From: an uncultured Acetatifactor sp.
GTDB taxonomy: Bacteria > Bacillota > Clostridia > Lachnospirales > Lachnospiraceae
Reading direction: 5' to 3'
Length of the DNA: 64,000 nt
Assembly: GCA_947594835.1 (NCBI GenBank)
Contig: CANQEH010000001.1
Span: 248,001 to 312,000, forward strand
Part shown: positions 560 to 56,019 of the stretch, one piece after another
How positions within the stretch are numbered: position 1 is the first letter of the stretch
Layout of the letters: each line of letters starts with the position of its first letter
Notes under the pieces: generated by a model
Told to the model about the DNA's origin: nothing
Database searches by the model: none
Seen by the model: the letters and a program-made list of their open reading frames with translations, nothing else
Translations under genes and position numbers: made by a program

Positions 560-712
560 TAGAAATAACGCAATCGAGAGAATATCGCGGTAAATGAACA
601 CAAATTGTCTTGAAATAAGCCTGCAAAAATTAAAGATAATTTACATTGTAACATTTGACATTTCCTGTTAAACTATTATGGAACACTTTTTTACTGAAAT
701 AGGGCAGGAGGC

Positions 713-814
713 AAAAGATTGAAAATTAAAATTTTCAATCGCGAGATTTGTGTCCGCGCGCTGCTTGACACAAACTCGTTATGCGCCAAGAGCAGCGCGG
801 AAATGAGGTATAAA
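713..814 (+). repeat. 102-bp structured leader repeat, copy 1
   Basis: This element ends one base before the ATG of pseC and recurs at 23631-23732 with a single difference (C at 787, A at 23705). It holds two hairpins. The first has arms 717-726 and 731-740, a perfect 10-bp A/T-rich stem around TAAA. The second has arms CGCGCTGCT (757-765) and AGCAGCGCG (791-799) around a 25-base loop. The second hairpin is followed by GGAAATGAGGT, the ribosome site. A diverged third copy lies at 55007-55086. The position right against the start codon argues for a 5' leader RNA acting on transcription elongation or translation. Confidence 0.85.
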
Positions 815-4321: not shown

Positions 4322-4354
4322 GCTGTCTCTGACGGCAGAATGCGAGGGAAAATG
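4322..4354 (+). promoter_or_regulatory. Hairpin-plus-ATGAGAGG ribosome-site element, copy 1
   Basis: A 15-nt hairpin (arms GCTGTC 4322-4327 and GACGGC 4331-4336, one G-T pair) is followed by three bases and then ATGCGAGGGAAAATG ending at the start codon (4352-4354). The same arrangement, with different but still pairing stems, occurs at 20997-21029, 22626-22658 and 59475-59507. Confidence 0.65.
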
Positions 4355-23615: not shown

Positions 23616-23630
23616 CGCAGCAGAAGGAGA

Positions 23631-23732
23631 AAAAGATTGAAAATTAAAATTTTCAATCGCGAGATTTGTGTCCGCGCGCTGCTTGACACAAACTCGTTAT
23701 GCGCAAAGAGCAGCGCGGAAATGAGGTATAAA
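23631..23732 (+). repeat. 102-bp structured leader repeat, copy 2
   Basis: This copy is identical to 713-814 except at one base (A at 23705). It is in the same orientation and again ends right before the start codon of a DegT-family aminotransferase. Both hairpins are kept. The two copies bracket 22.8 kb holding every pse gene in the window. Confidence 0.88.
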
Positions 23733-23734
23733 CC

Positions 23735-24874
23735 ATGAGTGAGATGATCAACTTTAACGTACCGCCTTACGTGGACAAAGCGGCGGACTATATGAGGGAT
23801 TGCGTGCGGAATCAAAAAATCTGCGGCGACGGCCCTTTTACCAGAAAGTGTTCCCAGTGGTTTGAAGAGCGCACGGGCACTGTCAAATGTCTGCTCACCA
23901 CCTCCTGTACCCATGCCCTGGAACTGGCGGCGCTGTTGGCACAGATAAAGCCCGGGGACGAGGTCATCATGCCTTCCTATACCTTTGTGTCCACGGCAGA
24001 TGCCTTTGTGCTGCGTGGGGCCACGCCGGTGTTTGTGGATATCCGGCCGGACACCATGAACATCGACGAGAAGCTGATCGAGGAAGCGGTCACCGAAAAG
24101 ACCAAAGCCATCGCGCCGATGCACTATGCGGGGGTTTCCTGCGAGATGGACACCATCATGGAGATTGCGGACAGACATGGCTTAAAGGTCATTGAGGACG
24201 CGGCCCAGGGCGTGCTGTCCTCCTACAAGGGCAAGGCTCTGGGAACCATCGGGGATTACGGGTGCTTCAGCTTCCATGAGACGAAAAATTACAGCATGGG
24301 AGAAGGGGGCGCCCTGCTGATCCGGGATGCGGAAAATGTGGAAGATGCGGAGATCATCCGGGAAAAGGGGACTAACCGCAGCAAATTTTACAGAGGCCAG
24401 ATCGACAAATATACCTGGATGAATTTCGGGTCTTCCTATCTGCCCAGCGATATGAACGCCGCGTATCTTTACGCCCAGCTGGAGATTGCCGATGAGATCA
24501 ACCAGGCCAGGCTGGCTTTGTGGAACCGGTACTACGAGAGGCTGAAACCCCTTGCCCAGGCGGGGAGGCTTGTGCTGCCCACCGTGCCGGAGGGATGTGT
24601 CCACAACGGCCATATGTTCTATGTGAAAGCAAAGGATCTGGAGGAGAGAACCAGGCTGATCGACTATCTGAAGGAGAATGGCGTTCATTCTGTGTTCCAT
24701 TACATTCCGCTCCACACTGCCCCCGCGGGCTTAAAATTCGGCAGGTTCCACGGGGAAGACAGATACACTACCAAGGAGAGCGAGCGTCTGGCCAGGCTGC
24801 CGATGTACTATGGCCTTACCCTGTCCCAGGTGGACTACATCTGCGACAAGGTGACAGCCTTTTATCAAAGCTAG
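23735..24874 (+). CDS. rffA: dTDP-4-amino-4,6-dideoxygalactose transaminase (RffA/WecE)
   Basis: A 379-residue DegT-family PLP aminotransferase that resembles E. coli RffA/WecE along its whole length. Shared segments are ICGDGPFTRKC, IMPSYTFVSTADAFVLRGA, PDTMNIDE, FSFHETKNYSMGEGG with the cofactor lysine near residue 184, REKGTNRSKF and the C-terminal FHGEDRYTTKESERL. It converts dTDP-4-keto-6-deoxyglucose to dTDP-4-amino-4,6-dideoxygalactose. The substrate is made by rfbB (34188), and the GNAT at 4.35 kb could acetylate the product. It is not the same enzyme as the PseC at 816, although both stand behind the same leader. Confidence 0.85.
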   Translation: MSEMINFNVPPYVDKAADYMRDCVRNQKICGDGPFTRKCSQWFEERTGTVKCLLTTSCTHALELAALLAQIKPGDEVIMPSYTFVSTADAFVLRGATPVFVDIRPDTMNIDEKLIEEAVTEKTKAIAPMHYAGVSCEMDTIMEIADRHGLKVIEDAAQGVLSSYKGKALGTIGDYGCFSFHETKNYSMGEGGALLIRDAENVEDAEIIREKGTNRSKFYRGQIDKYTWMNFGSSYLPSDMNAAYLYAQLEIADEINQARLALWNRYYERLKPLAQAGRLVLPTVPEGCVHNGHMFYVKAKDLEERTRLIDYLKENGVHSVFHYIPLHTAPAGLKFGRFHGEDRYTTKESERLARLPMYYGLTLSQVDYICDKVTAFYQS

Positions 24875-31165: not shown

Positions 31166-34138
31166 ATGAAAAGGATGTTTGGTTGGACGAAGAAACCGGC
31201 ACAGGAATGGGACGGCTGTGAGGAGGAGTATGACTGGGATCTGGACGCCCAGGAGGAAGGGTATGGGGATCCAGAGGAAGAAGACGGCGGTGCAGAGTTG
31301 TTTCAGGCGGATGACGGATACGATCCGGAAGAGGAGGACGTCTTTGATGCGGAGTCTCTGGAGGAGACAGGTTATGATCCGCAGGACGAGCTGTATTACA
31401 GTGAGGACGAGGAAGACGGAACCGGCTATGGCGAAGACATGGCGTATGATAGAGAAGACGGAACCGATTTTGATGGGGACGGGGCGTATTACAGAGAAGA
31501 CGGAACTGATTACAGCGAGGATGAGGCATACGACGGGGAGGACGGAGCCTTCTATGCCGATGAGGAGGACGGAGCGGATCCGGGAGAGGAACTTTACGCG
31601 GAGGAGCTGGAAGATACCGCTGGTTTGGAGCAGATGGCGGAAGAAGACGGCTACGAGTATTACACTTTTGAGGGAAACAGCGACGTCGATGAGGACGGCG
31701 GGAGATCGGAGAGAAGATCCCAAGGCCGGGGGAAAAAGCCCAGCCTTTGGGTGAAGCTGCAAAAAGGTCTGGCCGGGATGACGGCCATGGACAGGGTGAT
31801 TCTGGGAACCGGCGTGGGCGTGTTGATTCTGGCCCTGGTGGTAGGTTCTGTCTTTGCCGGAACCCGGGCGTCCGAAGAAAAGAGCGTGAGCCTTGCTGCG
31901 GTGGGAGCACAGCTGGATGGGATTGAGACCATCGGGGAAACGGGGCTTTTGGCAGTGGCGGATGCGCAGCTTGCAAAGCTGGCGGCGGCGAATGCCGTCA
32001 ACGAAGAAGAACAGGCGGCCTACGACGAGGAAGCGTACCAGAAAGAGGTCACTGTGGCGATGGAGATGGTCTCTGTCCAGCGCGACTTAAAGATCAAATT
32101 CATCAACCAGAAGACGGACAGGCTGATCTCCAACGTGCCCTTTGCCGTGAATGTCACAGACCCGGACGGCGGGTCGGCGGTATGGTCGGACGACGATATG
32201 GACGGCATCATCTATAAAACCGAGATCAAGCCCGGAAATTATAAGGTAGTGATGGAACCCCTCGCAGATGAGCGGTATGCCGGATATGTGCTGAACACCA
32301 CCTCGGCGGAAAAGGTGGAGGTGCGCAAGAACATCGCTTACCAGGCGGTGAATGTGTCAAATGAGGTAAAGAGCGAGAAAGAGGTAAACGCCAAGGCAGA
32401 GGATACCAAGGTCAACGAGACCCAGGTGGAGTCCGTGCTGCAGGATACCGTGGAATGGGTGGAGAGCAGGGTGGTCGCTTCCGCTTATAACGAGGTGCCA
32501 AAGTCTTCCATCCCTGATCCCATGACGCTGGCGCTGAGCAAGACATTTGAGCGGGCGTCGGAGGTGTCGCCTGGAGATGCCTCTACGGAACCTTCCACCG
32601 ACCCCTCCTCAGAGCCAACCGAGGCTCCCAGCGCGTCGCCCACCGCCTCCCCGGAGGCCACAGAGTCCCCTGCGCCCACGGATACGCCCACTCCTACACA
32701 AACCCCGGTATATCCGGACGCCAAGCTGACGGTGACGCCGGGGGCGCTCAGCCTGACGGTAAACGGAACTGCGACGGCAACAGCAACTGCACCGGGGGTG
32801 CCGGAAGCGGTGAAGTCCTCTGTCAAGTATGAGATCAGCACCGCGCCGAAAAGCGAGATCGCGACGGCGTCTGTGGAATCTTCCTCTGGCGTCATCACTG
32901 TAAAAGGTGTGGGGGCTGGAGAGACGTCGGTGGGGATCAAGGTCACTTACACTGCGGAGAACACAACCCAGGTCACCTCTACGGAAGCCACGCTCAAGAT
33001 CACCGTAGCGGCTGCCCGCACCATTACCCTTGACAAGACCGCAGCCACCGTATATTTGGGCGAGCCGGTGACCATAAAAGCCACCGTGAGCGGTGTCGCG
33101 GATCCTGCCGTAACGGTGGTATCCTCGGATGCCAATGTGGCCACCGTCAAGGCGGACAAGGGCGTGATCACCATCACCGGCGTTAAGGCGGGTACCGCCA
33201 CCATCACGGTAGGCTATTCAGAGAACAACGTGGCCTCTCCCAATGTGACCTGCGCAGTCACCGTAAAAGACAATCCGAAGAACAACAAGACGGCGAAGCT
33301 GAAGGATGCTTCCGGTCATCAGGTTTATGTGAATGAGAACGGCGCTTACCGGGAAGCTGTTTACGCGGACTACTACACCGCCGCGAAATTCTACCTGATG
33401 GGCGAGGCGAAATACACCGGGTGGCAGACCCTGGATGGGAAAGTGTATTACTTCCGGGCGGACGGCTCAAAGGTCACCGGAGAGCAGGTCATCCAGGGCG
33501 CAAAGTATAACTTTGCAAGCGACGGTTCCCTGGTGGTAGGAGACGGCAGGATGGGAATCGACGTGTCCAAGTGGAACGGCTCCATCGACTGGAATGCGGT
33601 GAAAAATTCCGGTGTAAACTATGTCATCATCCGCAGCGGTTACAGAGGCTCTTCGGCGGGCAGCCTGATCGAAGACCCCAAGTTTGTGACGAACATCAAG
33701 GGAGCCACGGCGGCGGGCTTAAAAGTGGGCATTTATTTCTTCACCCAGGCGGTGAATGAAGTGGAAGCGGTGGAGGAAGCCTCCATGGTGCTCAATCAGG
33801 TGAGGAATTACACCATTTCTTACCCCATCTTTTTGGATGTGGAGGCCAGCGGCGGCAGGGCGGATGCCATTGACAAGGCCACCCGCACCGCAGTGTGCAA
33901 GGCGTTCTGCCAGACCATCCAAAACGGCGGTTACACCGCGGGCATCTATGCCAACAAGACCTGGCTCAACAGCAAGATAGACGCCGGGGCCTTGGGCGCC
34001 TATAAGATCTGGCTGGCACAGTATGCTTCTACGCCTACCTACACCGGCAGATATGATATGTGGCAGTACCGCTCCACAGGCAGGGTCAGCGGCATCAGCG
34101 GCGACGTGGACATGAACCTGAGCTATCTGGGCTATTGA
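31166..34138 (+). CDS. Membrane-anchored GH25 lysozyme with Ig-like domains
   Basis: The protein has about 990 residues. In order: a strongly acidic cytoplasmic region (1-200) with three 14-residue repeats, a membrane span (about 208-236), a SpaA/prealbumin-like domain (about 310-420), a Ser/Thr/Pro linker (about 470-515), two Big-2-type immunoglobulin-like domains (about 518-618 and 620-701), a glucan-binding-repeat-like segment with GWQTLDGKVYYF (about 711-793) and a C-terminal GH25 domain (795-990). [13 protein letters not shown] (D891/E893) and MWQYRSTG carry the GH25 active-site residues, so it should cut peptidoglycan or a related glycan outside the cell. A second GH25 lies at 36216. 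The start codon is moderately sure; the ribosome site AAAAGGGGA is weak. Confidence 0.85.
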   Translation: MKRMFGWTKKPAQEWDGCEEEYDWDLDAQEEGYGDPEEEDGGAELFQADDGYDPEEEDVFDAESLEETGYDPQDELYYSEDEEDGTGYGEDMAYDREDGTDFDGDGAYYREDGTDYSEDEAYDGEDGAFYADEEDGADPGEELYAEELEDTAGLEQMAEEDGYEYYTFEGNSDVDEDGGRSERRSQGRGKKPSLWVKLQKGLAGMTAMDRVILGTGVGVLILALVVGSVFAGTRASEEKSVSLAAVGAQLDGIETIGETGLLAVADAQLAKLAAANAVNEEEQAAYDEEAYQKEVTVAMEMVSVQRDLKIKFINQKTDRLISNVPFAVNVTDPDGGSAVWSDDDMDGIIYKTEIKPGNYKVVMEPLADERYAGYVLNTTSAEKVEVRKNIAYQAVNVSNEVKSEKEVNAKAEDTKVNETQVESVLQDTVEWVESRVVASAYNEVPKSSIPDPMTLALSKTFERASEVSPGDASTEPSTDPSSEPTEAPSASPTASPEATESPAPTDTPTPTQTPVYPDAKLTVTPGALSLTVNGTATATATAPGVPEAVKSSVKYEISTAPKSEIATASVESSSGVITVKGVGAGETSVGIKVTYTAENTTQVTSTEATLKITVAAARTITLDKTAATVYLGEPVTIKATVSGVADPAVTVVSSDANVATVKADKGVITITGVKAGTATITVGYSENNVASPNVTCAVTVKDNPKNNKTAKLKDASGHQVYVNENGAYREAVYADYYTAAKFYLMGEAKYTGWQTLDGKVYYFRADGSKVTGEQVIQGAKYNFASDGSLVVGDGRMGIDVSKWNGSIDWNAVKNSGVNYVIIRSGYRGSSAGSLIEDPKFVTNIKGATAAGLKVGIYFFTQAVNEVEAVEEASMVLNQVRNYTISYPIFLDVEASGGRADAIDKATRTAVCKAFCQTIQNGGYTAGIYANKTWLNSKIDAGALGAYKIWLAQYASTPTYTGRYDMWQYRSTGRVSGISGDVDMNLSYLGY
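31442..31567 (+). repeat. Three tandem 42-bp units coding acidic repeats
   Basis: The units at 31442-31483, 31484-31525 and 31526-31567 encode AYDREDGTDFDGDG, AYYREDGTDYSEDE and AYDGEDGAFYADEE. They sit in the cytoplasmic, acidic N-terminus of the GH25 protein. Repeat number could vary between strains. Confidence 0.75.
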
Positions 34139-54981: not shown

Positions 54982-55009
54982 AGGGAGAGCTCTTTTGGCT
55001 CTCCCTTTC
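54982..55009 (+). terminator. Terminator-like hairpin after the LCP gene
   Basis: AGGGAGAGC (54982-54990) pairs perfectly with GCTCTCCCT (54998-55006) around TCTTTTG and runs into TTC. It takes the place of the A/T-rich first hairpin in the 102-bp leader copies, so it may be both a terminator and the first stem of the third leader copy. Confidence 0.55.
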
Positions 55010-55086
55010 AATCGCGGGATCTGTGTCTGGACGCTGCCTGGCAGAGGCGCGTCGTGCACAGGGAGGGCGCGGAAACGGAGAAAAAG
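55007..55086 (+). repeat. Diverged third copy of the structured leader
   Basis: From TTCAATCGCGGGAT through CTGTGTCTGG, ACGCTGCCTGG and GCGCGGAAACGGAG to the start codon, this stretch aligns with 734-815 with roughly 70 percent identity by eye and the same length to within a base or two. The first hairpin differs completely in sequence but is kept as a hairpin (54982-55006). The second stem is less perfect. It stands before a GT2 gene rather than an aminotransferase. Confidence 0.65.
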
Positions 55087-56019
55087 ATGACGGTAGATGT
55101 GATCATCCCGGTGTACCGGCCGGGGGAAGCCTTTTTGACCCTGCTGGACAGGCTGATGCGGCAGACCCTGCCGCCGCGGAAGATCATCCTGATGAAGACG
55201 GAGGACAACGCGGGGGAGACTGGGGCGGAAGGGTTCTGGACAGGGGAAAAATGGCGGGAAAAATATCCCAATGTAATTGTGGAGCGCCTTCCCAAGGAAG
55301 CGTTTGACCACGGCGGCACCCGGCACAGGGGGGTGCTCTGTTCCGACGCGCCGGTGTTTGTGACCATGACCCAGGACGCTATGCCGGCGGATCCCTATCT
55401 GCTGGAGCGTCTCACCCAGGCTTTGACGGATAAGGTGGCCGTGTCCTACGCCAGGCAGCTTCCGGGAAAGGACAGCGACGTGGCGGAGCGGATCTCCAGG
55501 GAGTTCAATTATCCCGCCGTCTCCTGTGTCAAGACAAAGGAGGACCTGGGGCGGCTGGGCATCAAGACTTTTTTCTGCTCCAACGTGTGCGCTGCCTACA
55601 GACGGGACGTCTACGACGCATTGGGCGGTTTCTGCCGGCATACTATATTTAACGAAGATATGATTTATGCGGCGGCGGCGGTGAAGGCGGGATACGGTAT
55701 CGCTTACCAGGCCAGGGCCCGGGTGATACACGCCCATCGGTATTCCAACTGGCAGCAGCTTAAGCGGAATTTTGACCTGGGCGTCTCCCAGGCGGATCAT
55801 CCCGAGGTGTTTGCCGGGATCGTGTCCGAGTCGGAGGGCCTTCAGCTGATGCGCCAGGCATGGAAGTATCTGAGGAAAAGAAAGAAGCTTTACTGCTTCC
55901 CGGGATTTTTTCTCCAGGGATGCTTTAAATATGCGGGCTATCTGTTGGGGAAGCGGTACCGGCTGCTCCCGAGAAAATGGATCCTGGCGTTAACCACAAA
56001 CCGGGAATACTGGAATTAG
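55087..56019 (+). CDS. GT2 glycosyltransferase (rhamnosyltransferase-like)
   Basis: A 310-residue protein. The ATG at 55087 follows CGGAG and begins VDVIIPVYRPGEAFL. EAFDHGGTRHRG is the characteristic block of a rhamnosyltransferase-type GT2 group, followed by FVTMTQDAMPAD (metal site), FFCSNVCAAYRRDVYDALGGF and NEDMIYAAAAVKAGY. The C-terminal part is basic and hydrophobic, fitting membrane association. It comes directly behind the third structured leader and 20 bases before glmS. Confidence 0.83.
   Translation: MTVDVIIPVYRPGEAFLTLLDRLMRQTLPPRKIILMKTEDNAGETGAEGFWTGEKWREKYPNVIVERLPKEAFDHGGTRHRGVLCSDAPVFVTMTQDAMPADPYLLERLTQALTDKVAVSYARQLPGKDSDVAERISREFNYPAVSCVKTKEDLGRLGIKTFFCSNVCAAYRRDVYDALGGFCRHTIFNEDMIYAAAAVKAGYGIAYQARARVIHAHRYSNWQQLKRNFDLGVSQADHPEVFAGIVSESEGLQLMRQAWKYLRKRKKLYCFPGFFLQGCFKYAGYLLGKRYRLLPRKWILALTTNREYWN

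Follow-up and report, generated by a model that had tools for sequence, protein, structure and literature searches.

The window, i.e., the whole 64,000-nucleotide stretch of DNA analyzed here, contains copies of what, judged from comparison of genome sequences, is a mobile element of ~100 bases that lies almost exclusively between the ribosome-binding site and the start codon of genes in this gut bacterium and its relatives. We propose, with a probability of about 0.7, that this repeat represents a "start-codon cassette" of Lachnospiraceae, mobile but non-autonomous, in which a pseudoknot and a new Shine-Dalgarno sequence (SD) serve as a portable translation-initiation module. By inference, the element appears to rewire the translation of the genes that it precedes.

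Copies in the window and in its genome

The setting of the window is a cell-surface glycan locus. A 102-nt repeat occurs there in two copies that are 99% identical (713-814 and 23631-23732), each before an aminotransferase gene assigned to DegT by Pfam, and a third, diverged copy is found near 55 kb (Table 1). Repeats of another kind are present as well: three degenerate 42-bp tandem repeats lie within a gene for a GH25/choline-binding protein (31412-31537).

Table 1. Features of the three cassette copies and their surroundings (window coordinates)
Feature	Position	Strand	Remarks
Native SD of DegT gene, now 5' of copy 1	706..711	+	AGGAGG; also kept in G013, whose orthologous site is empty (GCAGGAGGTATACG-ATG)
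Copy 1, mobile cassette (AAGATTG...GAGGTATAA)	715..813	+	97-100% identity to 18 other copies; boundaries set by the flanks of the copies
Copy 1, AT-rich 5' hairpin, 10 bp (GATTGAAAAT TAAA ATTTTCAATC)	717..740	+	Stem pairs covary between families
Copy 1, pseudoknot stem S1	742..778 (742-754 with 767-778)	+	Two-sided changes at all 10 pairs, 107 sequences
Copy 1, pseudoknot stem S2	757..799 (757-766, inside the S1 loop, with 790-799)	+	Two-sided changes at 6 of 9 pairs
Copy 1, cassette's own SD	803..808	+	ATGAGG; 7 nt 5' of the ATG at 816
Native SD 5' of copy 2	23624..23629	+	AAGGAG; insert missing at orthologous sites of G013, G061, G003, G005, and G016
Copy 2, 5' of DegT gene starting at 23735	23633..23731	+	99% identity to copy 1
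9-bp hairpin 3' of LCP gene, putatively ancestral, terminator-like, outside the cassette	54982..55006	+	Similar hairpin at the same place in element-free G013 and G021
Copy 3, putative 5'-truncated, diverged cassette, 5' of GT2 gene at 55087	55006..55086	+	70% identity to copy 1; covariance-model E = 4.6e-9; S1 and S2 weak
Copy 3, SD	55077..55080	+	GGAG; 6 nt 5' of the ATG

The three copies counted by the first-pass annotation underestimate the family, as there are about 20 to 30 in the genome. The window's own genome (G000; 2.76 Mb in 47 contigs) carries 19 copies at 97 to 100% identity on many contigs, plus diverged ones, and a covariance model gave about 30 matches below 1e-5 in it. At one site, three copies stand in tandem with a period of 97 bp.

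Position between Shine-Dalgarno sequence and start codon

All 19 of these copies lie in sense, and an ATG follows their 3' ends at a distance of 0 to 3 nt, except in the tandem, where the next copy takes its place. The element lies within 2 to 3 nt of start codons and, in many cases, inside an operon. The genes that follow encode, according to our reading of the translations (except for DegT, which rests on Pfam), metA, an NlpA-like lipoprotein, dapA, gatC, a MalY-like lyase, an ECF transporter, ABC transporters, a cellulase-like protein, and the two DegT aminotransferases of the window. Among the covariance-model hits examined, 75 of 76 end on the start codon of an open reading frame (ORF) of at least 40 amino acids, with the proviso that the model itself includes the ATG. 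A sequence pattern lacking the gene's ATG was matched 71 times in an independent collection, and an ORF starts 3 to 10 nt farther on in 65 of these cases versus 11% at random places; four of the remaining six also have an ATG there, with a short or contig-edge ORF. Directly 5' of the full copies stands, as a rule, a strong native SD, its predicted pairing with the anti-SD being below -6 kcal/mol in 15 of 18 cases versus 14% in the background.

Empty sites are available for comparison. In 22 other species of the genus, the site before metA is empty and the gene follows directly behind its SD. At the site of copy 1, G013 has GCAGGAGGTATACG-ATGGAAAAA, as against GCAGGAGGCAA, the element, and AAATGGAACAA in the window; the sites of copy 2, gatC, and malY are likewise empty in relatives. 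With sequence identities of 70 to 86%, these relatives do not fix the insertion points to the single base. The comparison also works reciprocally, in that sites filled in G061 are empty, or hold another cassette, in G000, G005, G012, and G013, and sister species therefore gained the element independently at different genes. Where copies are stacked, the newer ones sit behind the SD of the older one and join it exactly at SD-ATAAG. At two loci, L093 (1260-1722) and L097, the element directly follows a T-box leader (an Rfam match in L093 and a T-box-like sequence in L097), and transcriptional and translational leader parts are thus stacked.

Other cassettes occupy the same position. In one family, the order of parts is TTTGAAAGTAAACTTTCAAA hairpin, TTTTGATTGGTATG, second hairpin, and AAGGGGTATAA; this family has many copies in G012 and some in G000, and at loci L050, L052, L055, L056, and L311 it is located in SD-ATG gaps, stacked with the pseudoknot element. 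Another is a short GCCGC-loop-GCGGC hairpin followed by AGAAUGAGAGG, which is found about ten times on contig C1; leaders of this type occur in the window near 4334, 21009, 22638, and 59487, followed by AGAATGAGAGG and, 4 to 6 nt on, an ATG, and they had no counterpart in Rfam. Even orthologous start codons may bear different cassettes, as at the L096 site, which holds the pseudoknot element in G061 and the second, TTTGAAAGTAAACTTTCAAA-type family in G000. The presence of at least two further families at the same kind of site suggests that SD-ATG gaps are subject to a general process, as opposed to a peculiarity of one repeat.

The diverged copy at 55 kb

The first-pass annotation had aligned the region before the 55-kb GT2 gene with the 102-nt repeat, and this alignment is real: from TTTCAATCGCG (55006) to the ATG (55087), 61 of 87 columns are identical to copy 1 (70%), which is far above chance (blastn E = 2.4e-4 against the whole genome), and the covariance model found the same place (G000:C1:303014, E = 4.6e-9). 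We also recovered the perfect 9-bp stem reported there (54982-54990 with 54998-55006). What did not survive was the argument that this hairpin had been preserved while its sequence was not. Between their LCP and GT2 genes, G013 and G021 carry terminator-like hairpins (AAGGGGAGC..GCTCCCCTTTTT and GGGGGAGCT..AGCTCCCCC, respectively) that are related in sequence to the one in the window and are followed by an ordinary SD and start codon, with no element. Because element-free relatives have such a hairpin at the corresponding position 3' of LCP, the hairpin at 54982-55006 is best read as ancestral, an inherited neighbor that is not homologous to the AT-rich hairpin of the repeat itself. The 55-kb element would therefore be an older, 5'-truncated, decaying member of the family behind that hairpin; its pseudoknot stems S1 and S2 are weak and largely broken.

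RNA structure

The element has three parts: an AT-rich 5' hairpin, an H-type pseudoknot, and the sequence RGAAAUGRGG with the new SD, from which it is mostly 5 to 7 nt to the ATG. The stem of the 5' hairpin changes in concert between families (GAT/ATC, GTG/CAC, GAG/CTC, and AAG/CTT), and the idea of a hairpin kept without its sequence, mistaken in the case of the 55-kb copy, is thereby borne out for the family as a whole. Compensatory base changes of the kind expected of structured RNA were found at most pairs: two-sided changes affect 12 of 19 pairs in 31 diverse sequences and 16 of 19 in 107 sequences, the latter alignment having been fitted to S1 and leaning toward S1 rather than S2. All 500 shuffled controls (107 sequences) fell short of the observation on every measure; slid controls, too, were far lower. 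These patterns indicate that the pseudoknot is under selection for pairing. Some copies have extra hairpins inside their loops (L067, L068, L125, and L138), and in the genome of Lachnospiraceae C.B3_9 (L075, L076, L121, and L123) the same pseudoknot is found behind either of two interchangeable 5' hairpins (GAGTGAAAAATAAATTTTTCACTC and AGAACCAACTTTGTTGGTTCT), which sometimes stand in series. The initial description of a structured regulatory leader was thus right in that a family of structured leader elements with compensatory changes exists, but its hairpin argument for the 55-kb copy failed, and neither the mobility of the element nor its insertion into SD-ATG gaps had been recognized. The new SD is predicted to be mostly unpaired and not strongly hidden, and therefore no on/off switch is apparent.

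Distribution

The covariance-model search that had been suggested recovered the element, with real compensatory changes, in many Lachnospiraceae. At E <= 0.001, matches within the order are spread over 44 of 392 genomes and 29 of 173 genera; they are patchy and often multicopy, and copy numbers are very uneven, including between related species. Outside the order, there were only four single weak matches. Among cultured bacteria, Parablautia muri D42-62 carries one match. Plasmid sequences gave no match to the element, and viral contigs gave one pattern match, which lacks the element's upstream part. Carriage by phages was considered because 18 records labeled "Bacteriophage sp." match, among them L331 to L336 (MT83xxxx) from human feces; the longest encodes GH36, PolA, and PTS proteins and is a bacterial chromosome contig. 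We take these records as bacterial contigs and reject phage carriage, and the phage label of L331 to L336 is probably wrong.

Alternative explanations

The first-pass annotation had favored processive antitermination, i.e., a LoaP- or EAR-type leader for glycan operons, and both the structured nature of the element and its setting in a cell-surface glycan locus recall LoaP leader hairpins and EAR elements, which are also structured leaders in polysaccharide loci. We now consider this role very improbable. Proteins with a NusG domain (PF02357) number one in G000 (where we recognize no LoaP) and two each in G061 and G237, and none was found in G012, a 73%-complete genome with 9 or more copies. 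Unlike leaders of long polysaccharide or antibiotic operons, the copies stand at translation starts, beside the ATG and inside operons, before metA, gatC, dapA, malY, and transporters. The proposed link to glycan operons dissolves, since 75 downstream genes matched 103 Pfam families, none of which was hit by more than two genes. Nor did Rfam, EAR included, give a relevant match to the element even at E values up to 10, or in eight loci of relatives apart from the T-box in L093, and an EAR-like role thus lacks a match at any useful score. The single NusG-domain gene of G000 has a cassette ~600 nt 5' of it (G000:C26:21704-22704).

A trans-acting translational regulon, in which a protein or ligand binds the pseudoknot beside the SD and switches all carrier genes, has more in its favor and is still improbable. 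In preQ1 and SAM-II translational riboswitches, an H-type pseudoknot is located immediately 5' of the SD; here, too, the pseudoknot abuts the SD, and RGAAAUGRGG and the L3 sequence are conserved, as in several translational riboswitches. In contrast to those riboswitches, the element is mobile, has no stable association with target genes or with a single pathway, leaves the SD unsequestered in the predicted fold, and has no match in Rfam, and its sites turn over between sister species. A regulon for one pathway can be set aside, as the downstream genes share no pathway.

Two further readings concern how the element spreads and whether it serves its host. REP/BIME sequences (mobilized by RAYT, IS200/IS605-like) and MITEs resemble it in being short, non-coding, palindromic, dispersed, multicopy, and lineage specific and in having spread to empty sites; it differs from them in sitting at SD-ATG junctions in sense and in carrying an SD and a covarying pseudoknot. 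The machinery of the known classes was not found either. No Y1 transposase, as expected for REP/RAYT, was found in G000, G012, G237, G377, or G062, and no reverse transcriptase (PF00078), as expected for a group II intron or other retroelement, was found in the copy-rich G000, G012, and G061; we therefore discarded both enzymes as mobilizers, as neither is present in G000. The ends, AAGATTG and TATAA, form no terminal inverted repeats, and the flanks, which differ between the 5' and 3' sides, show no visible target duplication, so that the hallmarks of a MITE are lacking. Truncation at the 5' end was considered as a sign of target-primed reverse transcription and rejected, because the truncated copies have no SD directly upstream and look like products of decay. 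Candidates for the process are a transposase missing from the draft assembly, a known type of recombinase other than these, and microhomology-driven copying. In the last case, genes would acquire the leader from one another through recombination, by microhomology or template switching, between their SD-spacer-ATG stretches. Such copying would fit the absence of Y1 and reverse transcriptase genes from G000, the resemblance of both element ends to an SD plus A-rich spacer, and the exact SD-ATAAG joins of stacked copies; we nevertheless hold it rather unlikely, as repeated spread to about 20 sites is much to expect of homologies of ~8 bp and the AAGATTG boundary is sharp in nearly all G000 copies even though their flanks share no homology. 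A purely selfish, MITE- or REP-like repeat, whose structure serves movement (as hairpin DNA or RNA) rather than gene control, is a possibility of some weight, if not the one we prefer. SD-ATG sites would tolerate such a repeat because it brings its own SD, and old copies would persist only because that SD is needed, which agrees with the lack of a common function among the genes downstream, with copy numbers that differ greatly between related species, and with the many old copies that retain only the SD-bearing 3' end. However, old copies without the 5' hairpin still show compensatory changes in the pseudoknot core, which suggests a lasting role in the mRNA.

Proposed mechanism

According to the start-codon cassette model, which we prefer, a unit of ~100 bp inserts, in sense, into the gap between native SD and start codon, a step that emerges from the comparison of filled and empty sites. 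The transcript is able to fold into the AT-rich 5' hairpin and the H-type pseudoknot, and the 3' end of the unit provides its own SD, placed to serve the gene. Pseudoknot and new SD may act together in the mRNA as a portable translation-initiation module. Ribosomes loaded at the old SD might translate a short open frame that begins with TTG or GTG and runs through the cassette, and might then pass on to the new SD. This leader frame is open in 9 of 11 families versus 3 of 22 for the other frames (random expectation, about 0.19), although the families are related to each other and some copies break the frame (e.g., L131); the open frame therefore points to translational coupling into the new SD, a step that we put forward only tentatively. 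Translation of the gene would then be set by the cassette and not by the old leader.

Novelty and significance

To our knowledge, no mobile element has the short spacer from SD to start codon as its target, and we know of none that carries a covarying pseudoknot plus a replacement SD. A literature search of partial coverage gave no match beyond the TAACTGA direct repeats of Beggiatoaceae, and a prior description may exist. Those repeats, the nearest published parallel found, resemble the element in being dispersed, a few nucleotides before many start codons, among genes with no shared function, and a role in translation has been proposed for them (PMC4679880). They are, unlike the element, 7-nt units without structure or SD character, an SD being present in only about 10% of the regions concerned, and the passages describing them contain no empty-site evidence (PMC4679880). 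The cassettes may even represent a new class of mobile element, a view to which we give somewhat less than an even chance: SD-targeted, RNA-structured start-codon cassettes that insert by an undescribed mechanism, with several unrelated families of the same plan (AT-rich 5' hairpin, structured middle, and SD) that stack within one gap and repeatedly re-engineer translation initiation in Lachnospiraceae.

The position of these insertions raises the question of what recognizes the SD-ATG junction in DNA. If the effect on translation is true, the cassettes would amount to a natural, genome-wide swap of translation-initiation regions, and core genes, metA, gatC, and dapA among them, could differ in output between sister species of the gut.
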